Shown here in pieces: positions 20,990 through 40,027 of a stretch of DNA of 64,000 bases; within the stretch, counting starts at the first letter, position 1; every line of letters begins with the position of its first letter. The position numbers were made by a program, and so were the translations under genes. The notes under the pieces are model-generated. The model did no database searches, had not been told where the DNA came from, and saw nothing but the letters and a program-made list of their open reading frames with translations. The DNA comes from Flavobacteriaceae bacterium UJ101. GTDB taxonomy: Bacteria; Bacteroidota; Bacteroidia; Flavobacteriales; UJ101. The stretch is from contig CP016269.1 in NCBI GenBank assembly GCA_001880285.1, positions 1,684,501-1,748,500 on the forward strand. The letters are read 5' to 3'.

Positions 20990-21038
20990 TTTGCGAAAAT
21001 AATGGGAAAATGGCATATTTGAGTTCTAACTCAAAAAG
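20990..21038 (+). promoter_or_regulatory. Promoter and inverted-repeat operator of susC unit 1
   Basis: TTTG at 20990-20993 is followed after 20 bases by CATATTTG (21014-21021). The -7 box is overlapped by an inverted repeat TTTGAGTT...AACTCAAA (21018-21035, 2-base loop). The same arrangement occurs at the other four susC genes of the array. Confidence 0.65.
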
Positions 21039-21046
21039 ATTAATAG

Positions 21047-24000
21047 ATGAGGAAAAAATGTACAAACATTTTGACTTTATTCATGCTATTTGTATCAACC
21101 ATGATTTTTGCACAGATACAAGTATCAGGAATAGTTAAAGACGACGCTGGAGAACCACTGCCAGGAACTTATGTTGAAAATGAAAGTGGTGAAAGTGTAG
21201 AAACCGATATAGACGGTAAATATACCATTACAGCCAATCAGGGCGAAGAATTAACCTTTAGTTTTATTGGAATGGACGATGTTGTGAAAACAGTATCAGG
21301 AAATTCGTTAAATGTAACATTGGGAATGGATGATGGAAATGTTATTGATGATGTAGTAGTAATTGGTTATGGAATTACGATGGATGAAAATGAAAAAGCA
21401 GGAGCTATTGTAACAGTAGGTTCAGATGTTTTAGAACAAAATCCAAGTACTTCTATAGATCAAGCGTTACAAGGTGAAGTACCAGGGTTAAATTTATCAA
21501 CAAATGGAGGTCAACCAGGAGCAACAAATACTGTTGTGATAAGAGGTATTGGAACTTTATCAGGTGAATCAAACCCCTTATATGTTGTAGATGGTGTAAT
21601 TCTAGGTAGAGGAGAAGATAATTCTTCTTTAGTGACTTCTTTTAATCCTTTAGCAAGTATTGATCCAAATAATATTAAAAGTGTTACAGTATTAAAAGAT
21701 GCAATGGCAACATCTATCTATGGTTCATTAGGAGCTGCTGGGGTAATTGTTGTTGAAACTAAAACAGGTCGAAAAAATCAGAAAACTAAATTTACATTGT
21801 TATCTGAAACTAGTTTTTCAGACATAGCTTTTGATGATATTAATGTATATGATGCAGAAGGATACATAAATTTATCAGCAGAAGGTCTTGTTAATGCAGG
21901 TTTTGCTGGTACAATTGCTGAAGGAGTGGATTTAGCATCTAATGTAGTTGGTTGGGATGGAACAACCAATACTGATTGGGAAGATGCTGTTCAACGTTCA
22001 ACAGGAACAATTTACTCAAATTCATTATCATTTACTGGTGGCTCTGAAAAGAGTACATTCAATGGTAGTATTGGATTATATCAAAATAAACCATTAGCAA
22101 AAGAAACACAGTTTGACCGTGTTACAGGATCATTTCGATTTAATCATGATGTTACAGATAAATTTAATATTGGATTGAATACTCAATTTTCAAACTTAGA
22201 TCTGAACACACCTTCTGATGCAAGTTCTTTTTCTAATCCGTTTTTTGCACGTTTTACAGCTTTGCCAACATCTCCAATATATAATGAAGATGGATCATAT
22301 AATACTTCATTACCAGGATTTTTACAAACTTCCAATCCTGTTGGGAATTTGGAAAAGAATTTCACAAAAGGTGAACAAATGCGTTTAATTGGAGCTTTTA
22401 ATGCTGGATATGATATTACAGATTACTTAAAATTTGATACCAAAATTTCAGGAAATTATCAGGATCTTGATGAGCGTCAATATTGGAATCCTTATTTTGG
22501 GGATGGTTTAGCTTTTAATGGTTATGGAGCTGCAAGTTCTTTGGAAGATTTTCAATGGTCTTGGACTAATTTCTTACGATTTAAAAAAGAATTTAATGAT
22601 GTACACAGTTTGAAGGTTGATGTTGGGATGGATTATTTACAAGAAACTGTGAATACTCTTTTTACTGCTGCTCAAAACTTTTCAGGAGATTTTACCTATT
22701 TAGACTCGGCAGCAGAAAAAACAAGTGCTTCAACAAATAAGTATGAAAGATCACTTGTCTCTTATATTTCCAGAGTAACATACGCTTATGATGATCGTTA
22801 TGTTGTAAATGGGTTTTTTAGAAGGGAAGGAAGTTCTAAATTAATTAATAAGTGGGATAATTTCTTTGGTGTTGGATTAACTTGGAATGTAATTAATGAA
22901 TCTTTTATGGAAAACAGTAATGTTTTAAGTGATTTAAGATTACGTGCTAATTATGGTGAAACAGGAAATGATCCGTTTTCATTTTATACTTCTTGGTATA
23001 ATGGTTTACCACAGGTATCTACAGGGTTTAATTACGGAGATAATCCAGGTTTAACATTTGAAGTGCCTGGGAATGATCAGTTAACTTGGGAAAGAACAAA
23101 ACAATGGAACTTTGGATTGGATTATGGATTTGCTAATAATAGAATTACGGGTACAATTGATTATTATATCAAAAATGGAGAAGATTTATTTGTAGAAGTA
23201 CCTCTAACACCAAGTCAAGGATTCCCTACAAATTCACAAACGGGGAATGCCGCAGATATTCGTAATACAGGTTTAGAATTTTTAATAAAAGCTAAAATCT
23301 TTAAAGGAGAAGGATTTAATTGGACAGCAACAGGTAATTTTGCATTTAATGATAATGAAATTAAATCATTACCAGATGGAGAGGATATCCAAAGAGGAAA
23401 TAAAATTCTGAGAGTAGGAGAAGAAGTAGGAATGTTTTATGATTATGGATATGCTGGTGTTGACCCATCTAATGGAAATGCTCTTTTTTATACTGATGAA
23501 ACCAAATCTGCTACTACATCGAATTTAAATGAAGCAGCTCAATTTATTCAAGGTAGATCATTACCTAAGTATACGGCAGGTTTAAAAAATAATTTATCAT
23601 TTAAAGGAGTATATATAAATACAATGTTTAACTATGCTGGAGATTTTAAAGTTTGGGATCGATGGGCATTTGTTTATGATTCTGATGGGAGTTATTCAAC
23701 CGTAAACCCTATGGTTAGAGATCATTGGACTCCAGATAATACAGATGCTAAATATCCTAAATATGTATGGGGTAATGCATCGAGAGGAAATACAGGATCA
23801 CGATATATTTATGATGGAGATTATATCCGTTTAAAAGATTTAAAAATAGGATATAAATTTTCAGATGAAATATTAGATCAAATAGGTTTGGATGCTTTAG
23901 AATTGTATGTAAGAGGTACAAACTTGTGGACATATACGTTTGATGATGACTTATATTTTGATCCAGAGAGTACTTCGAATGCATACAGTGGTGATAAATG

Positions 24001-24076
24001 GGTTGGTACGGGAGTTTATGATTTAACGTCTCCTTTATTAAAAACATATTCTTTTGGTGTTGTTGTAGGATTTTAA
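21047..24076 (+). CDS. SusC/RagA family TonB-linked outer membrane protein, unit 1
   Basis: A 1009-residue outer-membrane importer. Signal peptide to about residue 23 (MRKKCTNILTLF...FAQ). A carboxypeptidase-regulatory-like domain occupies about 24-105 (VSGIVKDDAGEPLPGTYVEN, VETDIDGKYTITANQGEELT), then a TonB-box-like DDVVVIGYG, the plug (VLKDAMATSIYGSLGAAGVI) and a 22-strand barrel ending in the terminal Phe. It acts with the SusD partner starting 12 bp downstream: SusD captures ligand at the surface, SusC imports it using TonB energy. The plug-barrel part belongs to the class that pairs with canonical SusD/RagB lipoproteins. The substrate is unknown; peptides or glycans are both possible, as no enzyme gene is adjacent. 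Confidence 0.9.
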   Translation: MRKKCTNILTLFMLFVSTMIFAQIQVSGIVKDDAGEPLPGTYVENESGESVETDIDGKYTITANQGEELTFSFIGMDDVVKTVSGNSLNVTLGMDDGNVIDDVVVIGYGITMDENEKAGAIVTVGSDVLEQNPSTSIDQALQGEVPGLNLSTNGGQPGATNTVVIRGIGTLSGESNPLYVVDGVILGRGEDNSSLVTSFNPLASIDPNNIKSVTVLKDAMATSIYGSLGAAGVIVVETKTGRKNQKTKFTLLSETSFSDIAFDDINVYDAEGYINLSAEGLVNAGFAGTIAEGVDLASNVVGWDGTTNTDWEDAVQRSTGTIYSNSLSFTGGSEKSTFNGSIGLYQNKPLAKETQFDRVTGSFRFNHDVTDKFNIGLNTQFSNLDLNTPSDASSFSNPFFARFTALPTSPIYNEDGSYNTSLPGFLQTSNPVGNLEKNFTKGEQMRLIGAFNAGYDITDYLKFDTKISGNYQDLDERQYWNPYFGDGLAFNGYGAASSLEDFQWSWTNFLRFKKEFNDVHSLKVDVGMDYLQETVNTLFTAAQNFSGDFTYLDSAAEKTSASTNKYERSLVSYISRVTYAYDDRYVVNGFFRREGSSKLINKWDNFFGVGLTWNVINESFMENSNVLSDLRLRANYGETGNDPFSFYTSWYNGLPQVSTGFNYGDNPGLTFEVPGNDQLTWERTKQWNFGLDYGFANNRITGTIDYYIKNGEDLFVEVPLTPSQGFPTNSQTGNAADIRNTGLEFLIKAKIFKGEGFNWTATGNFAFNDNEIKSLPDGEDIQRGNKILRVGEEVGMFYDYGYAGVDPSNGNALFYTDETKSATTSNLNEAAQFIQGRSLPKYTAGLKNNLSFKGVYINTMFNYAGDFKVWDRWAFVYDSDGSYSTVNPMVRDHWTPDNTDAKYPKYVWGNASRGNTGSRYIYDGDYIRLKDLKIGYKFSDEILDQIGLDALELYVRGTNLWTYTFDDDLYFDPESTSNAYSGDKWVGTGVYDLTSPLLKTYSFGVVVGF

Positions 24077-24087
24077 GATTAAACGAA

Positions 24088-25485
24088 ATGAAAATAAAAA
24101 ATATAATAGTAGGAATAATTGGGATCGCTTTATTAATAAATTGTGATTCTGAATTAGATAAATCACCTGGTACATCTTCTCTACCTGATAATGCGATAAA
24201 TACAGAAACTGATTTACAAAATGCTTTGAATGGAGTGTATAATGCATTTCAAAGAGAAGGCGTTTATGGTAAAGATGTTTTTGCTTTTGGTGTTACCATG
24301 TCAGATATTGGATTTATTAGTATCAAAAATACAAATAGATTATCAACTATAAATGATTTTACTTACACACAGTTTACAGGTGATGTTTTTGATTTATGGG
24401 ATGATTTATATGAAGTAGTTCAAACATCAAATTTTGTGATAAATAATCAAAGTCTAGCTTCTTCAAGTACAGTTGATAAGATAAAAGCCCAAGCTTATGC
24501 AGCTAGAGGATTAGCATATCTAAACTTAATAAATTATTTTGGTCAAAATTATGGAGGTATAAATCAAGAATTAGGAGTTCCAATAGAACTAGATGAAAAT
24601 GTTGGGGATGGACTTCCAAGATCAACAGTTTCTGAAGTTTATACACAAATTGAAAATGATTTATTGCAAGCAATTTCTTTGTTTGAAAGTTCAGGAACGT
24701 CGACTTCTAAAAATGAATTGACAATAGATGCTGCAAATCTTATTCTAGCAAGAACGTATTTGTATATGAAAGACTGGGATAATGCGATTACTTATGCAGA
24801 AAAAGTTAAAGCATCCTCAGGATATACTATATTATCAGGTGATCAATATGTTCAATATTGGGCAGCTGAAACGGGTGCTGAATCTATTTTTGAATTAACA
24901 TTTACTTCTTCTGATGCATTGGGAAGAAACAGTTCATTACCATACTTGCTAGATCAAGAAGTAGGATATGGTGATTTAGTTGCAAGAGCATCATTTGTAG
25001 AGAGTATGGATGATTCTGATTATCGAAAACAACTATATTCAATTGCTTCAAGAGGAGATGATCCAGAAGGATATGCTACTAGTAAATTCCCGTATGAATC
25101 AGGAGCATTTCCAATGAAAGTTTTACGTTATGCAGAAGCTGATTTTATTATAATAGAATCAAAATATCAGAAGGGAGATGAAGCAGGTGCTTTGTCAGAT
25201 TTAAATACTTTTGTAGCAAATAGAAGTACAAAAACCTATTCATCTTCAGGATCCCAATTATTGGAAGATATTCTCCTGGAAAAAGCATATGAGTTTGCAT
25301 TTGAAGGACAACGCTTTTTAGATTTAAGAAGAAATGAAAAAGAGATTGTAAAAAGTACAAACTGTGTAAATAATTGTACAATGACTTATCCTAATGATAA
25401 GTTTGCTTTACCAATACCTAACGCTGAGATTAATTCTAATAATTCAATTTCTCAAGGAGATCAAAATCCAAGTTATAATAATTAA
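24088..25485 (+). CDS. SusD/RagB family surface lipoprotein, unit 1
   Basis: A 465-residue ligand-binding lipoprotein with lipobox LLINC (Cys19). DSELDKS after the Cys is acidic, as expected for lipoproteins exported to the cell surface in this phylum. The helical repeats of the SusD fold are visible: AQAYAARGLAYLNLINYFG, LILARTYLYMKDWDNAITYAEKV, and near the end LLEDILLEKAYEFAFEGQRFLDLRR, the classic SusD C-terminal signature, then FALPIPNAEIN. It is translationally close to susC (12-bp gap) and followed by a terminator, so unit 1 is a two-gene operon. It is a canonical RagB/SusD type, unlike the partners in units 3-5. Confidence 0.9.
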   Translation: MKIKNIIVGIIGIALLINCDSELDKSPGTSSLPDNAINTETDLQNALNGVYNAFQREGVYGKDVFAFGVTMSDIGFISIKNTNRLSTINDFTYTQFTGDVFDLWDDLYEVVQTSNFVINNQSLASSSTVDKIKAQAYAARGLAYLNLINYFGQNYGGINQELGVPIELDENVGDGLPRSTVSEVYTQIENDLLQAISLFESSGTSTSKNELTIDAANLILARTYLYMKDWDNAITYAEKVKASSGYTILSGDQYVQYWAAETGAESIFELTFTSSDALGRNSSLPYLLDQEVGYGDLVARASFVESMDDSDYRKQLYSIASRGDDPEGYATSKFPYESGAFPMKVLRYAEADFIIIESKYQKGDEAGALSDLNTFVANRSTKTYSSSGSQLLEDILLEKAYEFAFEGQRFLDLRRNEKEIVKSTNCVNNCTMTYPNDKFALPIPNAEINSNNSISQGDQNPSYNN

Positions 25486-25506
25486 TAATTAAAATAATTG
25501 GTTTAA

Positions 25507-25543
25507 AAAAACCATCTCAAACTTGTTTTGGGATGGTTTTTTG
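25507..25543 (+). terminator. Terminator of susCD unit 1
   Basis: AAAACCATC pairs with GATGGTTTT and is followed by TTG and further T residues, 20 bp after the susD stop. Confidence 0.8.
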
Positions 25544-25586
25544 TGTATATTATTGTTTTGAATAATGAAATAAATGTATATAAATG

Positions 25587-25664
25587 ATCCAAATATGCAG
25601 ACAAAAAATTCAAATGTTTGGATAAATGATAAAAAAAAGCCATATTTGAGTTTTAACTCAAAAA
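25587..25664 (+). promoter_or_regulatory. Promoter and two inverted repeats of susC unit 2
   Basis: TTTG 25617-25620 and CATATTTG 25641-25648 are 20 bases apart. TTTGAGTT...AACTCAAA overlaps the -7 box and the start of transcription. A second inverted repeat, ATCCAAA (25587-25593) and TTTGGAT (25617-25623) with 23 bases between, overlaps the -33 box. The arms are about three helical turns apart. Confidence 0.65.
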
Positions 25665-25957
25665 CTAAAAATTATATGAGGACAAAGTGTACAAAAATTT
25701 TGACACTTCTTCTAGTATTTGTTTCTGCAATAATGTTTGCGCAAATACAAGTGTCAGGAGTAGTAAAAGATGCCGATGGAGAGCCACTTCCAGGAGCATA
25801 TGTAGAAAGTGAAAGTGGTGAAAGTGTGGAAACCGATGTAGACGGTAAGTATACCATTACAGCTAATCAAGGTGAAGAATTAACTTTTAGTTTTATAGGA
25901 ATGGACGATAAGGTACAAAAAGTATCAGGAAATTCTATGAATATAACTTTAGGAGTA
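25587..25957. repeat. Direct repeat, copy A (promoter plus susC 5' end, unit 2)
   Basis: From the ATCCAAA site through the promoter, start codon, signal peptide and regulatory-like domain, the sequence is nearly identical to 30210-30580; landmarks keep a constant offset of 4623 bases. Differences are scattered single bases, plus a more divergent stretch at 25598-25612. Similarity stops near the TonB box. The exact edges were judged by eye. Confidence 0.85.
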
Positions 25958-28666
25958 GGTGATGGAAACGAGATTGAAGAAACAGTTGTTGTAGGGTATC
26001 AAGTAAGAGATGAAAGAACATTAGTACAAAACGTAACTGTTGTTAAAGAAGAAGCCTTAGAAGATTTACAAGCTAATTCTCCAGGAGAAATGTTACAAGG
26101 ACAATCTTCAGGAGTTCAATATACACAATCTTCAGGAGTTTTAGGGTCAGCAGGAGTTATAAATGTAAGAGGTATTGGATCATTAACAGGAGGTACTCAA
26201 CCACTTATTGTAGTTGATGGTGTTCCGATGAATGATGGAGGAGATAGTAGTATTTCTCTTTCATTGAATCAAGGAGGAAATACAGGGTTAAATCCATTAG
26301 CTGATATAAACCCAGATGATATTGCTACATTTACTGTCTTAAAAGATGCATCAGCAACAGCTATTTATGGATCTAGAGCAGCTAATGGTGTAATTATGAT
26401 TACAACAAAAAAAGGAAGAAGGAATAAAAATGCTCAAGTTTCTATTGATTATAATAATGGTTGGTCAACAGCTACTGATTTAATGGAAATGATGTCTGCT
26501 GACCAATATAGAACGTTTAGATCAGAGCAATTAACAGCAGCAGGACGCCCAACGACTCCAGAGGATTTTAGTCAAGATGGTTTTGATTGGCCTTCAGCGG
26601 TTGAAAGAACAGGTTACGTACAAACTGTAAATGCATCAGTAAGAGGAGGAGGAGAAAGAACTTCTTATTTTATTGGTGGAACTTATAGTGATCAAGAAGG
26701 GTTTATTTTAGGTAATGAACTAGAGCGACATGCAGCTAGAGTTAATTTAGAAACTAAAGCAACAGATTGGTTAACAGCAGGTATTAATATTGCTATTAAT
26801 AATAATAAATATGACCGAGTAGGTGTTGAAAACAGTACAGCAGCACCTTTTACTTCTGCTTTATTACAAAACCCTACTGTATCACCTTATGATGATGCAG
26901 GAAACTTTGTAAATACTGGGTTCATTCAAAATGTATTAGCTTTAGAAGCTTTAGATAGAAATGTGTTAGAATCTACAAGAACGTATGGAAATACATATTT
27001 AGAATTTAGACCGCTAAAAAATCTAACATTAAAAACAGATTTCGGTATTGATCGTTTAGATCAAGAAGAAAATCAACGTCAAGTTGAGTTGAACACTCCA
27101 GGAGGATATGCAATGAATCGAGTAGTTAATTTAAATAAGTGGTTGTGGACAAATACTTTAAATTATAAATGGAAGATAGGTGACAATCATAAATTCAATG
27201 TTTTAGGGGGTATCTCATATGAAGAATCTAAATTTAGTAGAACGCTTGTAGAAGGTACAGGTTTTGTTTTAGATTCTCAAGAAAATGTTTCAGGAGCATC
27301 AGAATTTCCTACTACTGCTCATAATGTAGAAAAGTATGGATTAGTTGGATATTTTTCTAGATTGAACTATGATTTATTTGATAGATATTTTTTAGAAGGA
27401 TCAATAAGAGTTGATGGGTCTTCTAAATTTAGTGCTGATAATCAATATGGAACATTCTGGTCAGTTGCTGGAGGGTGGTTGATTTCTGATGAAGCATGGA
27501 TGGAAAATAGCTTTTTTGATAAGTTAAAATTAACTACAAGTTATGGTGTGACTGGAAATGACCGAATAGGGTATTATAGATCGTTGAGACTATATGAATC
27601 AGATCCTTATAATGGAGGTGGAGGATTAACACCAGATGTTAATAACCCAGGAAATACTGATTTGAAATGGGAAACGAGTAAAATGTTTGATGTGGGAATT
27701 CAATCAAGATTCTTAAATAATAGAATTGGTTTAGATGTCGGATATTTTAATAAAAATATTGAAGATTTAATATTGAATTTACCACTAAATACATTAACAG
27801 GGTACTCTTCTGTTTTAAAGAATGTAGGTGAAATGAAAACAAATGGATGGGAATTTACTTTAAATACGGTAAACTTTGATACAAATGATTTTTCATGGTC
27901 TACAGATTTTAATATTTCATTTATAGAAAGTGAGATAGTATCATTATCTGAAGATTCAAATTTAGATTCTGAGGGAAGAAGATATGTGGCAGGATCTACT
28001 GTTCAAAGAGCTATTGAGGGAGAATCACCAAATAATTTTTATTTGATTCGTTATGCAGGTGTAAATCCAGAAACAGGTGATGCAGAATGGTTTACAAAAG
28101 ATGGAGAGAGAACGACAACGCCTACTCAAGATGATCGTGTTATTGCAGGAGATGCACAACCTGATTTCTTTGGAGGAATTAGAAACACGCTTAAATATAA
28201 AAACTTTGATTTATCATTTTTAATGAATTTCTCATACGGAAATGATATTTATGTTAGTGGATTACGTTTTACAGATAACCCAAATGGATCATTCAATAAG
28301 AGAACAGAATTAAATAATTATTGGAGACAATCAGGAGATAATGCATATTTACCGTCTTTAAGTAGTGCTACAATTGGAACTTTTAATCAAAGATCAACAT
28401 TACAAATGAAAGATGGTTCATATTTAAGAATGAAAAACTTAACATTAGGATTTACATTACCAGATAATGTATTAGATAAAGTAAATGTATTAGATAAAGT
28501 AAGATTTTATTTTACAGCAACTAATTTATTTACAATTAAAGATTCTGAGTTAGAAGGAATAGATCCTGAAGTTACAGATGATGTAAGTGCCTTAACCCAA
28601 GGAGAAACATTTTTTACAGCACCTCAATCTAAATCATATGTATTTGGTGTGAAGGTATCGTTCTAA
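25676..28666 (+). CDS. SusC/RagA family TonB-linked outer membrane protein, unit 2
   Basis: A 996-residue SusC protein: signal peptide to residue 23 (MRTKCTKILTLL...FAQ), regulatory-like domain to about 105, TonB-box-like EIEETVVVGYQ, plug (VLKDASATAIYGSRAANGVIMITTKKG) and barrel ending KVSF. I start at the ATG 25676 because the promoter lies inside the longer upstream frame and because the other four paralogues start with the same MR(T/K) peptide. From the start to about residue 93 the coding DNA is almost the same as in unit 3, but the plug and barrel belong to another subfamily (RagA-like with a canonical SusD partner). The partner gene follows after 18 bp. The substrate is unknown. Confidence 0.9.
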   Translation: MRTKCTKILTLLLVFVSAIMFAQIQVSGVVKDADGEPLPGAYVESESGESVETDVDGKYTITANQGEELTFSFIGMDDKVQKVSGNSMNITLGVGDGNEIEETVVVGYQVRDERTLVQNVTVVKEEALEDLQANSPGEMLQGQSSGVQYTQSSGVLGSAGVINVRGIGSLTGGTQPLIVVDGVPMNDGGDSSISLSLNQGGNTGLNPLADINPDDIATFTVLKDASATAIYGSRAANGVIMITTKKGRRNKNAQVSIDYNNGWSTATDLMEMMSADQYRTFRSEQLTAAGRPTTPEDFSQDGFDWPSAVERTGYVQTVNASVRGGGERTSYFIGGTYSDQEGFILGNELERHAARVNLETKATDWLTAGINIAINNNKYDRVGVENSTAAPFTSALLQNPTVSPYDDAGNFVNTGFIQNVLALEALDRNVLESTRTYGNTYLEFRPLKNLTLKTDFGIDRLDQEENQRQVELNTPGGYAMNRVVNLNKWLWTNTLNYKWKIGDNHKFNVLGGISYEESKFSRTLVEGTGFVLDSQENVSGASEFPTTAHNVEKYGLVGYFSRLNYDLFDRYFLEGSIRVDGSSKFSADNQYGTFWSVAGGWLISDEAWMENSFFDKLKLTTSYGVTGNDRIGYYRSLRLYESDPYNGGGGLTPDVNNPGNTDLKWETSKMFDVGIQSRFLNNRIGLDVGYFNKNIEDLILNLPLNTLTGYSSVLKNVGEMKTNGWEFTLNTVNFDTNDFSWSTDFNISFIESEIVSLSEDSNLDSEGRRYVAGSTVQRAIEGESPNNFYLIRYAGVNPETGDAEWFTKDGERTTTPTQDDRVIAGDAQPDFFGGIRNTLKYKNFDLSFLMNFSYGNDIYVSGLRFTDNPNGSFNKRTELNNYWRQSGDNAYLPSLSSATIGTFNQRSTLQMKDGSYLRMKNLTLGFTLPDNVLDKVNVLDKVRFYFTATNLFTIKDSELEGIDPEVTDDVSALTQGETFFTAPQSKSYVFGVKVSF

Positions 28667-28684
28667 TTAAAAAAAAGAAAACAA

Positions 28685-30100
28685 ATGAAAAAAATATTAT
28701 TCAGTATATTAACAATAGGATCATTGATGTCAATTTCATGTGATGATCAAATAGATGAACTCTCAGTTCCAGAGGATGATGTTGCTGGAGATTTAGTATT
28801 TAATTCTGAAACTGGAGCAAGAGCTGCCGTAAACGGATTATATTCAAAAATGCAAGATCCGGATGTATCTAATGGAAATGTTCAAGCTATGTCTGAATGG
28901 CAATCAGATAATGTTCGATTTGTAGGGTCCTTCCCAACATTTGTTGAAGTTTATACCTATAATACTTTGTCCAATAATACTAGTATAAATGGTATATGGA
29001 GAGATAGTTTTGAAACTATTGCGGCAGCAAACGTTGCAATTGAGAATATTCCTTTGGTAGAAGACGCTACTTTTACTGATGCGGAAAGAAATCAATTATT
29101 AGGAGAAGCAAAATTTGTGAGAGCATATGTTTATGCACAATTATTAGATTATTTTGCTCAACCATATTCACTAGATAATGGTGCTTCTTCAGGTTTGCCA
29201 ATAGTTGATTTTGTTTTTGATGGAACAAATAATGATGCATTTAACGCTTTAACAAGAAGTACAGTGAGTGAGGTAACTCAGTTTATTATAACAGATTTAA
29301 CAGAAGCAGAAGGTTTATTAGATGATAGTAGTAATGCCGTAGCATCTAAGGGTGCAGCTCAAGCAATGTTAGCAAGAATTTATTTAAATATGGATGATTA
29401 TGCAAATGCTGCAGATTATGCCACGAAGGTTATTGATAATGGTGCTTATGCTTTAGCAAGTGATTATTCTTTTTATAATACAACAGATAGAGAGTGGATA
29501 TTCACATTAGTAAACTCTTCTGAAGATAATGGTAGTACAAATGAAGGTTTTTCAGGATTATTCAATCCTACAGAAACTGGAGCTAGAGGAGATGCTCCTT
29601 TTTCTGATTATCTTATTGCATTATTTGAAGAGGAAGCTACAGATTTAAGATATACAGATTTAACGCAAACAGGTACTGATGCGTCTGGAATTTCAGATGC
29701 ATTATTTACGAGTAAATATCCTGATGGGGCAACGAAAACTGATAATGCCCCTTTAATTAGAATTTCTGAAATGTATTTAACACGCGCAGAAGCAAATGTT
29801 AAAGCGGGTAGTTCAGTAGGAGATACTCCTGATAATGATGTAAATAAAATTAGACAAAGAGCAGGTTTATCAGATTTAACGGGAGTTACTTTGGATCAAG
29901 TTTTAGATGAAAGAAGAAAAGAGTTGTGTTTTGAAGGTTTCCGAAGAATGGATTTATTAAGAAATAAAAGAAGTTTAAGACCAACAGGTGATCCACAAGA
30001 GGCTTTAGCAGCTTTTGGAGCTGATAAAACAATTTATCCAATACCTCAAAATCAAATTGATCAATCTGAAGGATCTATAACGCAGAACCCAGGATATTAA
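28685..30100 (+). CDS. SusD/RagB family surface lipoprotein, unit 2
   Basis: A 471-residue SusD-type lipoprotein with lipobox SISC (Cys19) and an acidic stretch DDQIDEL directly after it, the surface-export pattern. SusD features are AKFVRAYVYAQLLDYFAQPY, AAQAMLARIYLNMDDYANAADYATKVI, ISEMYLTRAEANVKAG and VLDERRKELCFEGFRRMDLLRN, then KTIYPIPQNQIDQSEG at the end. It is the canonical RagB/SusD type, as in unit 1, though the two are not close copies. It forms a two-gene operon with the preceding susC and ends at a strong terminator. It likely binds the ligand as a lid over its SusC. Confidence 0.9.
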   Translation: MKKILFSILTIGSLMSISCDDQIDELSVPEDDVAGDLVFNSETGARAAVNGLYSKMQDPDVSNGNVQAMSEWQSDNVRFVGSFPTFVEVYTYNTLSNNTSINGIWRDSFETIAAANVAIENIPLVEDATFTDAERNQLLGEAKFVRAYVYAQLLDYFAQPYSLDNGASSGLPIVDFVFDGTNNDAFNALTRSTVSEVTQFIITDLTEAEGLLDDSSNAVASKGAAQAMLARIYLNMDDYANAADYATKVIDNGAYALASDYSFYNTTDREWIFTLVNSSEDNGSTNEGFSGLFNPTETGARGDAPFSDYLIALFEEEATDLRYTDLTQTGTDASGISDALFTSKYPDGATKTDNAPLIRISEMYLTRAEANVKAGSSVGDTPDNDVNKIRQRAGLSDLTGVTLDQVLDERRKELCFEGFRRMDLLRNKRSLRPTGDPQEALAAFGADKTIYPIPQNQIDQSEGSITQNPGY

Positions 30101-30125
30101 TAAATAATATTTTGTATAAAATCAT

Positions 30126-30159
30126 AACCATCCTAAATTTAATTTGGGATGGTTTTTTT
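30126..30159 (+). terminator. Terminator of susCD unit 2
   Basis: AACCATCC pairs perfectly with GGATGGTT, with a T-run behind it. The stem is related to the unit 1 terminator (CCATC...GATGG), which suggests that whole units, not only the genes, were duplicated. Confidence 0.8.
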
Positions 30160-30209
30160 ATTATGGGCTATATTATTATTTTAAATAGTGTAATAAAAAT
30201 AGCTGAATG

Positions 30210-30287
30210 ATCCAAATGTGTAGATAAATAATCAAAATGTTTGGATAAATGATAAAAAAAAGCCATATTTGAGTTTTAACTCAAAAA
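30210..30287 (+). promoter_or_regulatory. Promoter and two inverted repeats of susC unit 3
   Basis: TTTG 30240-30243 and CATATTTG 30264-30271, 20 bases apart. TTTGAGTT...AACTCAAA overlaps the -7 box. ATCCAAA (30210-30216) and TTTGGAT (30240-30246) again have 23 bases between them, although the bases inside the spacer differ from unit 2. Confidence 0.65.
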
Positions 30288-30580
30288 CTAAGAATTACAT
30301 GAGGACAAAGTGTACAAAGATTTTGGCACTACTTCTAGTATTTGTTTCTACAATAATGTTTGCGCAAATACAAGTGTCAGGAGTAGTAAAAGATGCCGAT
30401 GGAGAACCACTTCCAGGAGCATATGTAGAAAGCGCAAGTGGTGAAAGTGTAGAAACCGATATAGACGGTAAGTATACCATTACAGCCAATCAAGGTGAAG
30501 AATTAACCTTTAGTTTTATAGGAATGGATGATAAGGTACAGACAGTATCAGGAAATTCTATGAATATAACTTTAGGAGCA
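30210..30580. repeat. Direct repeat, copy B (promoter plus susC 5' end, unit 3)
   Basis: Counterpart of 25587-25957 with the same order of sites and the same spacings. Identity covers non-coding and synonymous positions, so it is not explained by selection on the protein alone. Confidence 0.85.
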
Positions 30581-33500
30581 GGTGAAGGGAATGAGATTGA
30601 GCAAGTTGTTTTAACAGCCTTAGGTACAGAAAGAAAAAAAGATGATGACTTAACGGGTTCAACTGTTGTACAAACGGATGTATTGCAACGTTCAGGAGAG
30701 TCAGGAGTATTACAAGGATTGGCAGGTAAATCTTCAGGAGTTCGAATTACAAAGAATTCAGGAGACCCAGGAACAGGAGCTTTTATCCAAATTAGGGGTC
30801 AAAACTCTATTTTAGGTAGTAATCAACCATTAATTATAGTTGATGGAGTAATTGTTTCTAATACGGATACGAGAGGTGGAGCAACAGATTTTGCAACAGA
30901 TGGAGTATCACAACAGTCACGTTTAAATGATATTAACCCAGATGATATTGAAGATATGACGGTATTAAAGTCAGCTGCTGCAACTGCAATTTATGGTACT
31001 TCTGCGGCTAATGGTGCTATTATTATTAAAACTAAGTCTGGTAAATCGGGTAAAAGAGGTTGGAAAGGAGATGTTTCATTAGCTTATACTATGGATGAGA
31101 TTAATGAAAAATGGGATAAACAATCAACTTTTGGTCAAGGATATAATGGAAATTATTTAAATAATAGCCCAACAGGTTCAGGATTCTTTGCAGGAACTTC
31201 ATGGGGAGATAAAATTTCGTTGCGTTCAGGAGGTGCTGATGGAGTAGATACTTCAGGACAATATTTTGAAGCTGCTGATGGAACTAGATATTATCCTTAT
31301 GCTGTTAATGCTGATGGAACTTTACAAAAAAATTCGACAGCTACATATAATGGATCTAATGAAGATCAGATTTTTAGAAATAATGGAAGTACAAAAAATG
31401 TAGGTTTAGGTTTATCTTATGCAGGAGAAGATTCTAATACTTATATTGGAATATCAAATTGGGATCAAGAAGGTGTTGTAAGAGGTAGTGATTATTCACG
31501 TTCTACATTTAGATTAAACAATACAACAGCAGTTACGGATAAGTTAACATTTAGTATTGCTACTAACTATACATATAGTAGTTCAAATAGAATCCAACAA
31601 GGTTCAAATTTATCAGGTTTATATTTAGGATATTTGAGAACACCAGCAGATTTTGATAACAGTGATTATATTGGTACTTATTATGATGCTGCAGGGAATG
31701 CAAATTTAAATAGACAAAGAGGGTTTAGAAACTTTTTAGGATCAAGTAATCCAGCATATAATAACCCAGGATGGACCTTAAATCAGCAAAAAAATACGGC
31801 GAAAGTGAATCGTTTTATTATATCGCCTAAGTTAATTTATAAAATTAATGATCATTTAACAGCTTCAGCTACGTATGGTGTTGATTATTATGATGATAAA
31901 CGTGAGACGTTCTTCCCGACTAACTCAGCAGGAGATTTTCCAAATGGAATGTATCGTAGAGATGATATCAATGAAAAAATTGAGACAGTTAATGCCAATA
32001 TTTCAGGAGTTCATACTTTATCAGAAGGAATTGGTTTGAATTGGACAGCAGGTTATATGTTAGAAAATAATAAATTTGAAAGACTTTCTGGACAAATTCA
32101 AAATTTTGTAAATCCATTCCCAGATTTTAATACTTATAAAGATTTTGGAAATTCTGTAGCTGGAGATTCGTCTGTAGATCAATATACAGAACAAGTTAAA
32201 AAGCATGCTTTTTATGGAGTGGTTGGTTTAGATTTATTTGACCAAGTATTAATGGAATTTACAGGGCGTTTTGAAAGTCCATCTACTTTACCAAATGAAA
32301 CATTATTTTTCCCTTCAGCAGCTATTGGATGGAAATTCTCTGAAAATATAGAAAGTGATATTATTTCTTTTGGAAAAGTAAGATTTACATATGGAGAGGT
32401 AGCTGTTGAACCACCTGTTTATTTAACGAACCCAGAATTTGAAACGGCTGATGTTGGTTCTTCATGGGGAGATGCTTTAGATGGAGCTCAATATGGAAAT
32501 CCATTTGAGGAAAGCCGTATTAAAGCAAACCCTAATATTAAAGAGGAAAGAATTAGAGAATATGAAGCGGGGTTAGATTTAAAATTATTTAAAAATAGAT
32601 TTTCTATTAACACAACTTATTTTCATAGAAGAACAGAAGATGCTATTGTACAGCAGACTTTAGCACCAGCTTCTGGTTATGATTCTCAATATACAAATGA
32701 TGCAACCTTAACAAATAAAGGAATTGAAATTGATTTTGATGGAACAATTATTCGAAATAGTAATTTTAATTGGAAAGTATTTGGTAATTTTTCAAGTATA
32801 GATAATGATGTTAAGATGACCAATTCAGGAGATGTGTTTTTAGATGGTTTTTCAGGAACTTCTGCTGTAGCAATTAATGGTTATCCAATGAGTGCTTTAT
32901 ATGGTGGAGCTTGGGCTCGCGATACTAGTGGAAATATTATTTTAGATGCAAATGGATTTGCTTCAGCTGGAACGGAAGATCAAGTAATTGGAGATCCTAA
33001 TCCAGATTGGACAGGGGCTATTGGAACAGAGTTTAATTTTAAAGGAATTACTTTAAGTGCTTTAGTGGAGACCTCTCAAGGAAATCAAGTATGGAATGGT
33101 ACGAAAGGAGTATTATATTTCTTTGGAGTACATCCAGATACAGCAAATGAAGTTACGGTTTCAGCAGCTGATGCATCTAGTATAGTAAATGCAAATGGAA
33201 CAGCAATAAACAATTTATCTTATGCACGTCAAAATAGTGATGGAACTTATACGGTTCGAGGAAATTTACATGATTTTGGGGCAGGTAATGTGTTGTTAGA
33301 TCAAGAATGGTATACAGGAACTGGAGGAGGTTTTGGTCCTGTTGCAGAACAGTTTGTAGAAGATGGTTCTTGGGTTAAATTAAGAGAGATATCTTTAGGA
33401 TATGAGTTACCAAGTAAATTAGTAGATCGAATTGGACTTAAAAATGTTTCAATAGGAGTTACAGGACGTAATTTAGTGACATGGACTGATGTTGAAGGCT

Positions 33501-33607
33501 TTGATCCTGAATCAAACTTAACTGGTGCAGGAAAGGGTCGTGGATTGGAATATTTTACTAATCCAAGTACACGTTCATATTTATTTAATGTAAAAATAGG
33601 ATTTTAA
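30299..33607 (+). CDS. SusC/RagA family TonB-linked outer membrane protein, unit 3
   Basis: A 1102-residue SusC protein with the same N-terminal signal peptide and regulatory-like domain as unit 2, then a TonB-box-like EIEQVVLTALGTERKK, plug (VLKSAAATAIYGTSAANGAIIIKTKSG) and a longer barrel ending KIGF. The start at 30299 is chosen as for unit 2; the promoter lies upstream of it. The plug and barrel are close to unit 4 over their whole length (shared GRNL-W-D and TGA-KGRGL-YFTNP near the end), so units 3 and 4 come from one duplication. The N-terminal module, by contrast, matches unit 2 best. The partner, a SusD-like_2 type lipoprotein, follows after 11 bp. Confidence 0.9.
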   Translation: MRTKCTKILALLLVFVSTIMFAQIQVSGVVKDADGEPLPGAYVESASGESVETDIDGKYTITANQGEELTFSFIGMDDKVQTVSGNSMNITLGAGEGNEIEQVVLTALGTERKKDDDLTGSTVVQTDVLQRSGESGVLQGLAGKSSGVRITKNSGDPGTGAFIQIRGQNSILGSNQPLIIVDGVIVSNTDTRGGATDFATDGVSQQSRLNDINPDDIEDMTVLKSAAATAIYGTSAANGAIIIKTKSGKSGKRGWKGDVSLAYTMDEINEKWDKQSTFGQGYNGNYLNNSPTGSGFFAGTSWGDKISLRSGGADGVDTSGQYFEAADGTRYYPYAVNADGTLQKNSTATYNGSNEDQIFRNNGSTKNVGLGLSYAGEDSNTYIGISNWDQEGVVRGSDYSRSTFRLNNTTAVTDKLTFSIATNYTYSSSNRIQQGSNLSGLYLGYLRTPADFDNSDYIGTYYDAAGNANLNRQRGFRNFLGSSNPAYNNPGWTLNQQKNTAKVNRFIISPKLIYKINDHLTASATYGVDYYDDKRETFFPTNSAGDFPNGMYRRDDINEKIETVNANISGVHTLSEGIGLNWTAGYMLENNKFERLSGQIQNFVNPFPDFNTYKDFGNSVAGDSSVDQYTEQVKKHAFYGVVGLDLFDQVLMEFTGRFESPSTLPNETLFFPSAAIGWKFSENIESDIISFGKVRFTYGEVAVEPPVYLTNPEFETADVGSSWGDALDGAQYGNPFEESRIKANPNIKEERIREYEAGLDLKLFKNRFSINTTYFHRRTEDAIVQQTLAPASGYDSQYTNDATLTNKGIEIDFDGTIIRNSNFNWKVFGNFSSIDNDVKMTNSGDVFLDGFSGTSAVAINGYPMSALYGGAWARDTSGNIILDANGFASAGTEDQVIGDPNPDWTGAIGTEFNFKGITLSALVETSQGNQVWNGTKGVLYFFGVHPDTANEVTVSAADASSIVNANGTAINNLSYARQNSDGTYTVRGNLHDFGAGNVLLDQEWYTGTGGGFGPVAEQFVEDGSWVKLREISLGYELPSKLVDRIGLKNVSIGVTGRNLVTWTDVEGFDPESNLTGAGKGRGLEYFTNPSTRSYLFNVKIGF

Positions 33608-33618
33608 TTAAAGGTATT

Positions 33619-34926
33619 ATGAAAATAAATAGAATAAATAAAATATTGATACCGAGTTTTGTTGGGTTAACATTATTGGTATCGACTTCATGTGAAAGTG
33701 ATGTTAATGATTTAAATACAAGCCCGAATAGCTTTTCTTCTGTTGATGCTTCATTACAGATAGGTACGGCGGATTTAGCTACTGTTTTATTAGCATCATC
33801 AGACGCTAGTAGAATGGCTTCGATATATTCAAATCATACGGTTGGAGCAGGAGCTCAATGGGCATCAATAGAATCATATAATATTACAGCGGGAGATTTT
33901 GATAATGTTTGGAATAATGCATACCAACAAGGATTAAATCAATCTAGAAATGTAAAAGTACAGGCTATAGCAAATTCAGAAAATATATTAGCAGGAAGAG
34001 CATTAGTAGATGAAGCTATGTTTTTAGGAGAATTAACTGCTTTTTTCAATGATGTACCAGATGTACAAGCAACATATAACGATAACCCTGTTTATGATGC
34101 TCAAATAGAGGTGTTAAATTCAGTACAATCAAAATTAGATTCGGCTTCTACATATTTAGGAAGTAATAGTGTATCTTCAACTGGGATAGCCTCAGCTGGG
34201 ACTTGGGATGAAGTTATTCAAAGTTTAAAAGCACGTTATTATTTAATTCAAAAAGATTATGCTAATGCGTTAACAGCAGCTCAGTCAGGTATTTCATCAT
34301 CAGCAAATGATTATTCATCAGTACATGCAGATGTTGCAGGTCAGAAGAATTTATGGTATCAATTTGAAGCTGAACAAAGAACGGGAAATATAGTTGGAGA
34401 AGGAAGTTATTTATATAATTTATTAGATCCAGCAAATACTACAGTAACAAGAAATTTAGCTACTGCAGGAGATGAATTACGATTTGCTAATTATTTTAAT
34501 GATGGTAATGTAAATACAACAGGTGTATTTGCAGCAGATGCATCATTTCCTATTGTTTCATGGTATGAAACCAAATTAATAGAAGCAGAAGCAGCTCATA
34601 GAACAGGAGATGAAGGAACAGCATTAACTGCTTTAAATGAAGTTAGAGCCGCATTAGCTACGGAGTTTGGAGGAGAATTTCCTGATGCTTCTTCAAGTGG
34701 TGATGATTTATTGAAGGATATATTAGAAGAGAAGTATATTACTTTGTTCTGTCAAACACAAGTAGCTCATGATTTAGCTAGAACAAATAACTTTATAGGA
34801 GTTCCAGCAAAAACAGGAGCAGATTTACCAGTTAGATTTTTGTATCCTCAAGTTGAGATTAATTCAAATTCTAATATACCTACAACTAGACCAGGTATTT
34901 TTGTCCCAACAACAATAAATCAATAA
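33619..34926 (+). CDS. SusD-like (SusD/RagB-related) surface lipoprotein, unit 3
   Basis: A 435-residue lipoprotein with lipobox LVSTSC (Cys25 by position) followed by ESDVND. It belongs to the divergent SusD-like_2 group rather than canonical SusD. Signs are TSPNSFSSVDASLQIGTADLATVL at the start, the SLKARYYLIQKDYANALTAAQSG helical repeat, WYETKLIEAEAAHRTGDEGTALTALNEVRAAL and LLKDILEEKYITLFCQTQVAHDLARTNNFIGVP at the end. It is clearly paralogous to the unit 4 partner, which has the same phrases. It forms an operon with the preceding susC, is followed by a terminator, and should form the lid of the unit 3 importer. Confidence 0.85.
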   Translation: MKINRINKILIPSFVGLTLLVSTSCESDVNDLNTSPNSFSSVDASLQIGTADLATVLLASSDASRMASIYSNHTVGAGAQWASIESYNITAGDFDNVWNNAYQQGLNQSRNVKVQAIANSENILAGRALVDEAMFLGELTAFFNDVPDVQATYNDNPVYDAQIEVLNSVQSKLDSASTYLGSNSVSSTGIASAGTWDEVIQSLKARYYLIQKDYANALTAAQSGISSSANDYSSVHADVAGQKNLWYQFEAEQRTGNIVGEGSYLYNLLDPANTTVTRNLATAGDELRFANYFNDGNVNTTGVFAADASFPIVSWYETKLIEAEAAHRTGDEGTALTALNEVRAALATEFGGEFPDASSSGDDLLKDILEEKYITLFCQTQVAHDLARTNNFIGVPAKTGADLPVRFLYPQVEINSNSNIPTTRPGIFVPTTINQ

Positions 34927-34968: not shown

Positions 34969-35003
34969 TTAAAATCCAGAGAAATTTATTCTCTGGATTT
35001 TTT
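34969..35003 (+). terminator. Terminator of susCD unit 3
   Basis: AAAATCCAGAGAA pairs perfectly with TTCTCTGGATTTT around a 5-base loop, followed by T residues. The 13-bp stem is one of the strongest in the window. Confidence 0.85.
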
Positions 35004-35076: not shown

Positions 35077-35124
35077 TTTGGATAAGTGTATGAAAAAAAT
35101 AAAATTTGGGTATAATAAACTCAA
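35077..35124 (+). promoter_or_regulatory. Promoter and inverted-repeat operator of susC unit 4
   Basis: TTTGGAT at 35077-35083 is placed as in units 2 and 3, and AAAATTTG (35101-35108) lies 20 bases after TTTG. The inverted repeat is TTTGGGT...ACTCAAA: the arms still pair through a G-T wobble although the loop differs. The ATCCAAA left arm seen in units 2 and 3 is missing. Confidence 0.55.
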
Positions 35125-35138
35125 AAAAACTTTTTTCT

Positions 35139-38100
35139 ATGAGGACAAATTTTACAAAGATTTTAACGTTACTCATGGTATTTATTTCTGCTATAATAAT
35201 CGCGCAGATACAAGTATCAGGAGTAGTAAAAGATTCAGAAGGAGAACCACTCCCAGGAACATATGTAGAAACAGAAAATGGTGAAAGTGTAGAAACCGAT
35301 ATAGACGGTAGGTATACTATTACAGCCAATCAAGGTGAAGAATTAACCTTTAGTTTCATCGGAATGGATGATAAAGTACAAACGGTGTCTGGGAATACTA
35401 TGGATATAGTAATGGGAGATGAAGAAGGTAATAATACAATTGATGAAGTTGTAGTTTCTACCGTATTGGGAACGAAGAAGAAAAAAGAAAATGATTTATC
35501 TTCTTCAACATTAATAAATACTGAAACTTTAGAAAAGGCAGGAGAGACAGGTATTGTTCAAGCCATGTCTGGTAAAACTTCTGGATTAAAAATCACAAGA
35601 AATAATGGTGATCCGGGAGCAGGAGCCTTTATACAAATAAGAGGTCAAAATACTATTTTAGGAGATGGATCCCCTTTGATCATTATAGATGGTGTTCCTT
35701 ATTCAAATTCAAGTGTTGGAGGAGATGTTGATGGTGTAGCACAGCAGTCACGATTAAATGATTTAAACCCTGATGATGTTAAAAATGTGACAGTAATAAA
35801 AGGGGCACAAGCAGCAGCAATTTATGGAACAGGTGCTGCAAATGGTGTGATTATAATTGAAACAAAGAAAGGAAGTAAAGGTAAAGTAAAAGTAGATATT
35901 TCATCAAGTATCGCAGTAAGTGAAATAAATGTGGAGCATGATAAGCAATCGACATTTGGGCAAGGACTTCCAAGTCATTATGTAGGCTTGTCTGAAAGTC
36001 AATTTGGATCTTGGATTGCAAACTCTTCAACCTCATGGGGAGATTATATTCCAGATCGTTCAGGAGATGCAGATGTTCTTTCAATTGGAAATGAAAGATT
36101 TGTTGCTGAAAGTGGAAATGTATACTATCCAATTCTTCAAAAAAATTCACGTAATACCTATAACGGAGTTAATAGAGATCAAATATTTCGTAAAGGAATT
36201 GCATATAATAATAATATAGGTGTATCCTTTGGAAGTGATCGATCAACAACTTATTTAAGTTATTCAAATACAGATGAAGAAGGGATTATAAAAAATTCTG
36301 ACTATAATAGACAGACTTTTAGAATTAATCAAGGAGTTAGTTTAACCGATAAAATATCGGCAAAAGTAAATGCTGCATATAGTTATATTACTTCTAATAG
36401 AATTCAACAAGGTTCAAATCTAAATGGACTTTATTTAGGGTATTTACGAACTTCACCTGATTTTGATAATACAGATTATAAAGGAACATATTATGATTCT
36501 AATAATATTCCTTTCCCAAATTCACATAGAGGTTATCGTAATTATTTAGGAGATCAAGCTAATAGTTCAGTTCCTAATTATAATGCACCTGCATATAATA
36601 ACCCAGGATGGACGATATATGAACAAAAGAATGATTCGAAGGTAAATCGTTTTAATATAACACCGTCTTTGAAATGGGATCTTAGAGATAATCTTTCGAT
36701 TAATGTCATTTACGGTTTAGATTATTATGAAGATAAAAGAAATACATTTTTCCCAGTTAATTCAGGATCATCTCAGGCTGTTGGGCAGTATGATTATATG
36801 GAATTAAGTGAAAAAAACCAGTTTTTCAATATTTTCACAACATGGAATCAGGACTTTAGTGAGAACTTTAAATTATCAACGGTTGTAGGTTTAAATTTTA
36901 AAGATGATGAATATACATCATCAGGAAGTAGAGTTACCAATTTAATTAATCCTACATCTGATTTTATTATTCCTAATGGTTCTTCTTCTAATACAAATCC
37001 TATTGCTATAAATCCTAATGTAGGTATTGTTAATGGGAAATATACTCAAAGAAAACGAAAAGGAGGTTTATATGGTACAATTTCAGCAGATATTGCTAAC
37101 CAATTATTAATTGAAGTAGCAGGAAGAATTGAAAGACCAAGTACTGTTGATAACAATATTTTTTATCCTTCTATTGCAGCAGGATGGAAGTTTACAGAAG
37201 CTTTAGGTAGTGGAGATTTTTTAACATTTGGTAAAATTAGAGCTTCTTACGCTGAAATAGGAATAGAGCCTTTACCTTATTTAAATAAAACAAGTTATTA
37301 TATAGGAGGTTATGGATCTTCATATGGAGATGTTCTAGATTCATCTCAATATGGTTCAATTCAAAGAAGTTCTGTCCAAGGTAATCCAGATTTAAAGGAA
37401 GAAAGAATTAAAGAATTTGAAATAGGTACTGATTTGAAATTCTTAAAAAATAGAGTAACTTTTCAAGCAACATATTATAATAGAGTGACGGAAGATGCCA
37501 TATTACCTTTAGATGTACCAGCATCAACAGGATATACTTCACAATATCAAAATGGTGCTAAAATAACCAATAAAGGATTTGAATTAGATTTAGGAGGGAC
37601 GATTGTAAAAACAAGTAAATTAAAATGGAAAGCAGATTTAAATTTTGCAACGAATGATAGTAAAGTAACCGATCTATTGGGAGTACAATCGTATTCATTA
37701 AATGGTTTTACCGGAACTTCTTCTCGAGTAGTGGAAGGGCAACCTTTTGGAGTTATTTGGGGTGGTCAATGGGCAAGAAATGATGATGGAAGTTTAGCGT
37801 TAGATGCTAATGGTTTTGCTCAATATGGTCAAAATGGTGTAATAGGTGATCCAAATCCAGACTGGACAGGAGGAGTTTCCAGTTCATTAGAATGGAAAGG
37901 GTTTACATTATCAGCTCTCGTAGAAACATCTCAAGGAGGAGAAATGTGGGCTGGTACTGAAGGTGTTTTAAAATATTTTGGTATTGATCCAGAAACAGCC
38001 AATATTTCGGTTGCCCCTACAGATTTGAAAACAGTAGATGGAAGAACTATTTCTGCAGGAACACGTTTTAGAGGAAATGTTCATGATTTTGGAAGTGGAC

Positions 38101-38420
38101 TTGTAGCTTTAGATGCTGAATGGTATCTCAATAACGGTGGAGGTTTTGGACAAGTAGCAGAAGATTTTGTAAAAGATGCTTCATGGACACGTTTAAGGGA
38201 AGTTTCATTGTTTTATAATATTCCTAAACAAGTAATAGAATCTACAGGTTTATCAAGAATTGAGATAGGTCTAACAGGTAGAAATTTATTTTTATGGACT
38301 GATTTTGAGGGGGTTGATCCTGAGTTGAATTTAACAGGAGCTTCAAAAGGAAGAGGATTAGATTACTTTACTAACCCTGGAACAAAATCATACTTGTTTA
38401 GTTTAAAATTATCTTTTTAA
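35139..38420 (+). CDS. SusC/RagA family TonB-linked outer membrane protein, unit 4
   Basis: A 1093-residue SusC protein. Signal peptide to about residue 23 (MRTNFTKILTLLMVF...IAQ), regulatory-like domain (PLPGTYVETENGESVETDIDGRYTI is split here only by a few changes from the other units), TonB-box-like TIDEVVVSTVLG, plug (VIKGAQAAAIYGTGAANGVIIIETKKG) and barrel ending KLSF. The start is the ATG 35139; an upstream in-frame TTG falls within the promoter. It is a full-length paralogue of unit 3 and pairs with a SusD-like_2 protein 12 bp downstream. Its N-terminal module is a little more divergent than those of units 2 and 3. The substrate is unknown but probably related to that of unit 3. Confidence 0.9.
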   Translation: MRTNFTKILTLLMVFISAIIIAQIQVSGVVKDSEGEPLPGTYVETENGESVETDIDGRYTITANQGEELTFSFIGMDDKVQTVSGNTMDIVMGDEEGNNTIDEVVVSTVLGTKKKKENDLSSSTLINTETLEKAGETGIVQAMSGKTSGLKITRNNGDPGAGAFIQIRGQNTILGDGSPLIIIDGVPYSNSSVGGDVDGVAQQSRLNDLNPDDVKNVTVIKGAQAAAIYGTGAANGVIIIETKKGSKGKVKVDISSSIAVSEINVEHDKQSTFGQGLPSHYVGLSESQFGSWIANSSTSWGDYIPDRSGDADVLSIGNERFVAESGNVYYPILQKNSRNTYNGVNRDQIFRKGIAYNNNIGVSFGSDRSTTYLSYSNTDEEGIIKNSDYNRQTFRINQGVSLTDKISAKVNAAYSYITSNRIQQGSNLNGLYLGYLRTSPDFDNTDYKGTYYDSNNIPFPNSHRGYRNYLGDQANSSVPNYNAPAYNNPGWTIYEQKNDSKVNRFNITPSLKWDLRDNLSINVIYGLDYYEDKRNTFFPVNSGSSQAVGQYDYMELSEKNQFFNIFTTWNQDFSENFKLSTVVGLNFKDDEYTSSGSRVTNLINPTSDFIIPNGSSSNTNPIAINPNVGIVNGKYTQRKRKGGLYGTISADIANQLLIEVAGRIERPSTVDNNIFYPSIAAGWKFTEALGSGDFLTFGKIRASYAEIGIEPLPYLNKTSYYIGGYGSSYGDVLDSSQYGSIQRSSVQGNPDLKEERIKEFEIGTDLKFLKNRVTFQATYYNRVTEDAILPLDVPASTGYTSQYQNGAKITNKGFELDLGGTIVKTSKLKWKADLNFATNDSKVTDLLGVQSYSLNGFTGTSSRVVEGQPFGVIWGGQWARNDDGSLALDANGFAQYGQNGVIGDPNPDWTGGVSSSLEWKGFTLSALVETSQGGEMWAGTEGVLKYFGIDPETANISVAPTDLKTVDGRTISAGTRFRGNVHDFGSGLVALDAEWYLNNGGGFGQVAEDFVKDASWTRLREVSLFYNIPKQVIESTGLSRIEIGLTGRNLFLWTDFEGVDPELNLTGASKGRGLDYFTNPGTKSYLFSLKLSF

Positions 38421-39761: not shown

Positions 39762-39780
39762 TAACAAGTAGATACAAGTA

Positions 39781-39826
39781 AATAAGCCCTTTTTATTTAA
39801 TTATAAAGAGGGCTTATTTATTTTTT
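39781..39826 (+). terminator. Terminator of susCD unit 4
   Basis: AATAAGCCCT pairs with the stem around AGGGCTTATT (internal mismatch near the apex) and is followed by a long T-run. A further short hairpin (ACACTT...AAGTGT, about 39842-39858) follows. Confidence 0.75.
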
Positions 39827-39988: not shown

Positions 39989-40013
39989 CATATTTGAGAA
40001 TATCATAACTCAA
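39989..40013 (+). promoter_or_regulatory. -7 box and inverted-repeat operator of susC unit 5
   Basis: CATATTTG (39989-39996) overlaps an inverted repeat TTTGAG...CTCAAA whose loop is 10 bases instead of 2. No TTTG lies at the -33 position, unlike units 1-4, so activation may differ. Confidence 0.5.
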
Positions 40014-40027
40014 AAATATAATTTTCA

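Follow-up and report, generated by a model that had tools for sequence, protein, structure and literature searches.

Shared 5' modules on unrelated transport parts in a tandem susCD array of Flavobacteriaceae bacterium UJ101

SusC/SusD (SusCD) pairs are surface-exposed and determine what the cells of Bacteroidota import. In Bacteroides, SusC/D variation through DNA inversion is known from shufflons, systems of surface transporters that have a common 5' part and alternative transport parts. A comparable anatomy is found in ragA of Porphyromonas gingivalis, in which the first 450 bases (signal peptide and N-terminal extension, NTE) are near-identical in four types while the remainder of the gene and ragB are divergent (PMC11817032), and variable surface proteins of this kind have been proposed to undergo gene conversion (PMC5266723). 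The SusC/D proteins of the fructan PUL of B. thetaiotaomicron do not follow the strain phylogeny, and their substrate specificity is altered (PMC5967196). More generally, gene families can evolve in concert by ectopic gene conversion (PMC2720389).

The tandem susCD array of Flavobacteriaceae bacterium UJ101 resembles each of these and is identical to none. It likewise joins a common 5' part to alternative transport parts, as shufflons do, but it has no inverted units or silent copies, and a recombinase was not detected among the ORFs of at least 150 aa in the window (the whole stretch analysed, 64,000 nucleotides of contig CP016269.1). It has the anatomy of RagAB, with a constant 5' end and a divergent remainder, but the RagAB types are alleles of one locus across strains, whereas the variants here are paralogues that stand side by side in a single genome and whose barrels are unrelated and belong to different SusC subfamilies. 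The fructan PUL likewise has variable SusC/D at a corresponding locus, but it is a single locus rather than an array, and the part of that report drawn on here describes no constant 5' module (PMC5967196). As in concerted evolution in general (e.g., PMC2720389), the paralogues would be closer to one another than to their orthologues within a limited tract, but in the array the tract is confined to the 5' module, the barrels are not homogenized and the pattern recurs in tandem SusCD loci. The open-licence literature yielded no account of 5' modules that evolve in concert within tandem SusCD arrays; the allelic form has its precedent in ragA and the tandem, slot-wise form seems to be unreported.

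The array and its shared 5' tract

The genome is a single 3.07-Mb contig, in which five tandem susCD units, all on the + strand, lie between infB and dnaG, with rimP-nusA-infB on one side and a dnaG-pbp1-psp1 block on the other (Table 1). Each susC encodes, in order, a signal peptide, CarbopepD_reg_2 (the SusC NTE, PF13715), a TonB box, a plug and a barrel. Pfam detected the NTE and the plug (PF07715) in all five SusCs and the barrel (PF00593) in SusC2, SusC4 and SusC5, the barrels of SusC1 and SusC3 being recognized by homology, and the adjacent SusD partners match SusD models (weakly for susD3). These are SusC-type TonB-dependent transporters with SusD partners. Each of susD1 to susD4 is followed by a terminator-like hairpin, which suggests that the units are transcribed separately. 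Elsewhere in the window, a 555-aa ORF (54364-56031, +) had no Pfam match.

Table 1. Features of the susCD array, in window coordinates.
Feature	Position	Strand	Basis or remark
Unit 1 5' module, diverged copy	21007..21340	+	about 82% nt to units 2 and 3
susC1 (NTE, TonB box, plug, barrel)	21047..24076	+	Pfam
susD1 (SusD-like_3 / SusD_RagB)	24088..25485	+	Pfam
Spacer, susD1 to unit 2 module	25486..25611	+	78% identical to unit 3 spacer
Terminator-like hairpin after susD1	25506..25542	+	consensus scan
Unit 2 5' module	25612..25978	+	maximum-likelihood segmentation, permutation test, dS
Inverted repeat TTTGAGTTTTAACTCAAA before ATG, overlapping -7-like box	25645..25662	+	same at 30268-30285
susC2	25676..28666	+	start set by alignment with other units; longest ORF opens at 25574
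susD2 (SusD_RagB)	28685..30100	+	Pfam
Unit 3 5' module, partner copy of 25612-25978	30235..30601	+	maximum-likelihood segmentation, permutation test, dS
susC3	30299..33607	+	barrel sister-like to susC4 (51% aa), not susC2 (about 25-26%)
susD3 (divergent SusD; weak SusD_RagB match)	33619..34926	+	Pfam
Unit 4 5' module, diverged copy	35139..35381	+	about 83% to unit 2, about 84% to unit 3
susC4	35139..38420	+	
susD4 (SusD-like_2)	38433..39761	+	Pfam
Unit 5 5' module, most diverged copy	40006..40262	+	about 70-76%; about 73% nt to unit 2
susC5	40028..43195	+	
susD5 (SusD-like_2)	43214..44653	+	Pfam
Terminator-like hairpins after susD2 to susD4	30126-30154, 34971-35001, 39776-39823		consensus scan

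In an unprompted repeat search, direct repeats emerged at the start of every one of the five susC genes. The initial annotation had described units 2 and 3 as almost the same DNA from upstream of the promoter to near the TonB box, silent and non-coding sites included, and this is borne out: maximum-likelihood segmentation of the alignment delimits a tract of 366 bp with 94.5% identity (20 substitutions, no indels), which spans positions -64 to +302 relative to the ATG and contains the promoter-like region, the leader, the signal peptide and the NTE, ending at the TonB box, which starts at about +300. The first 57 bp, over the promoter-like region, are identical. When variable sites were permuted, none of 2000 trials reached the observed segment score for units 2 and 3, and none of 2000 did so for units 1 and 3. 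Beyond the tract the SusC2 and SusC3 proteins are only about 25% identical and the SusD types differ, and units 1, 4 and 5 retain diverged versions of the module (Table 1), both as had been described. The sharp boundary also claimed there holds for the right end, where identity falls to 48%, the background level, but not for the left, where it is 78% over 124 bp and fades rather than stopping abruptly; only in units 2 and 3 does a similarity of about 78% extend over the whole spacer, back to the preceding susD.

An inverted repeat, TTTGAGTTNTAACTCAAA, lies directly ahead of susC1 to susC3 and overlaps a -7-like box, CATATTTG. The TTTGAGTTTTAACTCAAA repeat has six matches (three sites, both strands) where 0.11 are expected, and a copy with C for T is present at 21018-21035. 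Variants in units 4 and 5 (near 35104-35126 and 39992-40015) keep the arms with a longer and different spacing. The predicted hairpin folds in units 1-3 no better than in shuffled sequences and does not fold in units 4 and 5, and Rfam gave no matches in the array or in the window as a whole.

A leader of the form TTAATTCAAA, followed by about 10 nt and then ATGARAACAAA, is conserved across species before SusCs with unrelated barrels (upstream of susC at loci L071, L072, L085, L091, L142-L144, L165 and L224-L232) and resembles the TAACTCAAAA leader of the window. The Thr codon ACG in the ATTTTAACG stretch of the signal peptide is nearly constant. Interspecies conservation of part of the 5' region means that the modules owe some of their similarity to selection. 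Selection for expression probably acts on the leader and first codons and may in turn hold the copies close enough in sequence for recombination.

Silent sites and conflicting histories of module and barrel

If the module and the barrels shared one ordinary line of descent, their synonymous divergence should be the same, and this clearly fails. Units 2 and 3 have a module dS of 0.16, compared with 1.02 for the plug and a saturated 0.94 for the barrel. The silent sites of the module are free to vary, because its dS in the other unit pairs is 0.48-0.98. At conserved residues of the unit 2 and 3 modules the same codon is used in 76 of 85 cases, where 47 would be expected under independent codon choice. 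A bounded tract of high identity that includes silent and non-coding sites is what is looked for in ectopic gene conversion. The sites that differ between units 2 and 3 divide into nine unit 2-like, nine unit 3-like and two ties, an even split that favours neither direction of copying.

The two parts are placed differently in trees to which orthologues from other families and further SusCs of this genome were added. In the module tree units 1-5 are grouped with support of 97/98, whereas the barrel tree, a quick tree in which long branches are present, rejects both a clade of units 1-5 (delta lnL 850, p-AU 7e-6) and a grouping of units 2 and 3 (delta lnL 585). Barrels 2, 3 and 4 cluster with relatives from another family, barrel 2 next to L085/L086 and the other two with a large clade, whereas barrel 5 joins L061/L062, non-array paralogues whose modules differ from that of the array; the orthologues of barrels 2 and 3 in other genomes also carry different modules. 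The tract and its flank are in phylogenetic conflict, a further mark of ectopic gene conversion. A DNA search of the genome found the module solely in the array and, together with the modules of the non-array SusCs, this led to rejection of a module common to the whole genome. Since L061/L062 lack the array module, its sharing tracks position and follows neither barrel ancestry nor the genome as a whole, and its presence in array members and not in the relatives of barrel 5 suggests that it moved by recombination between neighbours. Of the gene conversion or module exchange proposed initially, recombination is supported by the dS contrast and the conflicting trees, which do not tell conversion from crossover. 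When genome contigs were searched with SusC2, the matches were distant relatives only (27-32% identity) and uninformative on the module, and the first DNA matches in other families (L006-L008) were chance matches.

Recurrence in other genomes and exchange at slot B

Similar pairs are present in a genus group that includes the genomes G029 and G176 and that we take from gene content to be Flavobacterium. In G176 a second susCD comes after the barrel-3 orthologue; its barrel is unrelated and its module 76-77% identical. The leader-plus-start pattern matched only three of 146 genomes, in each exactly twice, 4.6-4.9 kb apart. With the window genome excluded and only unrelated barrels (<36% aa) considered, module nucleotide identity is 75% in 14 tandem pairs and 58% in 99 non-tandem pairs, and upstream identity 77% and 50%, respectively, whereas the remainder is equal (45.8 and 45.6%). 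The difference (Mann-Whitney p about 3e-8) is only indicative, as pairs within genomes are non-independent and sampling was query-biased: pairs and controls came mostly from matches to one consensus module query, among which tandem pairs rank high, the other sources being the leader pattern (three pairs) and earlier ortholog searches (some). The same codon is used at a rate of 59% in tandem pairs and 44% in controls, compared with 89% in units 2 and 3, and judging by these rates most of the outside tandem pairs are old. Some non-tandem SusCs of the Flavobacterium group do share modules. In one genome, G122, two SusCs (L097 and L099) that are 1.35 Mb apart have modules 78% identical and unrelated downstream parts (48%), so adjacency is not required.

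The most informative locus is a tandem pair in G029, in which the modules are 90% identical and the barrels 26% (aa), over a tract from -22 to +317 that again ends at the TonB box. The locus is also present in the sister species G418 and G364, where its flanks are conserved; from the sequence we read these as fusA, rpsG and rpsL on one side and rlmB and rarA on the other. In the first position (slot A) the barrels are 82-85% identical across the three species; one slot-A susC orthologue, in G362 (L126/L141, G362:C1:1268337-1271600), has an in-frame TAA stop. At slot B, G418 and G364 are 93% identical to each other, G029 is only 33% identical (aa) to both, and no counterpart of its SusD was found in G418 or G364, while the promoter region is 91-93% conserved. 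Informative sites at G029 slot B are B-type upstream (22/26) and A-type in the module (34/41; Fisher p=5e-8), so G029 slot B kept its own promoter and has a slot-A-type module and a different transport part. The slot-B module is 90% identical to slot A of G029 and 89% to slot A of G418, and from this near-equal closeness the copying may predate the split of G029 and G418. Exchange of the transport part at the same locus is thus observed between species of the Flavobacterium group, and at G029 slot B this part is seen, on sequence comparison, as replaced in place behind the 5' module. Across species, slot B (L235, L237, L239-L243, from slot A to rlmB) holds several unrelated SusC barrels and SusDs with conserved flanks.

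Competing explanations and the proposed mechanism

The similarity of the modules might be due to strong nucleotide-level selection on promoter, leader and NTE, which would hold the copies alike in the absence of recombination. Conservation of the leader and first codons between species is consistent with this, and FopS small RNAs, which in Bacteroides bind a susC mRNA near its start codon (PMC11697453), would be a possible source of constraint. Such an explanation is nevertheless highly improbable, as the silent-site contrast already contradicts it. Units 1, 4 and 5 vary without restraint at these silent positions, barrels 2 and 3 have orthologues with other modules, and the non-array SusCs of the same genome do without the module. 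The near-perfect palindrome ahead of the ATG in units 1-3, and the inversion systems of Bacteroides, would be compatible with site-specific switching, by which a shufflon or invertible element would shuffle the transport parts downstream of a single expressed 5' end. This possibility was rejected, and its chances are very slim: all five units are complete, in the same orientation and with their own 5' regions; the repeat is degenerate and differently spaced in units 4 and 5; it is the TonB box, not the repeat, that marks the end of the tract; no recombinase gene was detected by Pfam among the ORFs of 150 aa or more in the window; and a DNA search of the genome, with its five complete units on the same strand, found no inverted or silent copies of the module. 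Tandem near-identical repeats are a frequent source of assembly error, but an artefact is barely credible for copies that are 366 bp long, differ at 20 sites and lie in a single closed contig, given that the same pattern is present in independent genomes.

A different type of recombination is also conceivable, in which crossover inside a module, either duplicated or already resident, brought in a new barrel and SusD behind it, so that the barrel moves and the module stays. Units 2 and 3 also resemble each other in the spacer that precedes them, and slot B of the Flavobacterium group has differing barrels and SusDs behind conserved promoters and between conserved flanks, both of which would fit. 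The units with barrels 3 and 4 in the window, however, are related (51%) and adjacent, as they would be after plain tandem duplication, and no second breakpoint was mapped downstream of susD, which leaves this route tentative and somewhat doubtful for the array.

The reading we favor, with a probability of roughly 0.85, is that the 5' modules of the array are alike through recombination between neighbouring units. The modules (promoter, leader, signal peptide and NTE) would evolve in concert by homologous recombination between neighbours, as suggested by the paralogues here and by those of another genus, while the transport parts (TonB box, plug, barrel and SusD) would keep separate and much older histories. 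The simplest form of this recombination would be ectopic gene conversion, which we infer in preference to crossover, and its latest visible event would be the one that made units 2 and 3 near-identical over 366 bp. The TonB box would be the point at which the tract stops, since homology between units with unrelated barrels runs no further, whatever selection does. The NTE is an independent Ig-like domain joined to a flexible TonB-box segment, and its deletion from Bt1763 of B. thetaiotaomicron is dominant-negative (PMC7782687); an independently folding domain with a flexible linker to the TonB box may be what allows chimaeras to survive and function. Each unit would then have a common expression-and-export front end on a different receptor, with any benefit of this being presumptive.

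The module may, in addition, act as a homology arm for the exchange of whole SusC-barrel and SusD cassettes, so that tandem arrays in genomes of the Flavobacteriales type would be slot-based loci of diversification, leaving expression and export intact, with the modules kept alike by conversion between neighbours. This role, to which we would give somewhat less than an even chance, is supported in the Flavobacterium group and would apply to the window by extension, and the slot-B comparison makes it testable. The likeness of NTEs among SusCs would also have an explanation that is in part neutral with respect to function. If the proposal is true, cells could change the receptor while the promoter, the export signal and the TonB-linked domain stay fixed, and new import specificities would be expressible at once.
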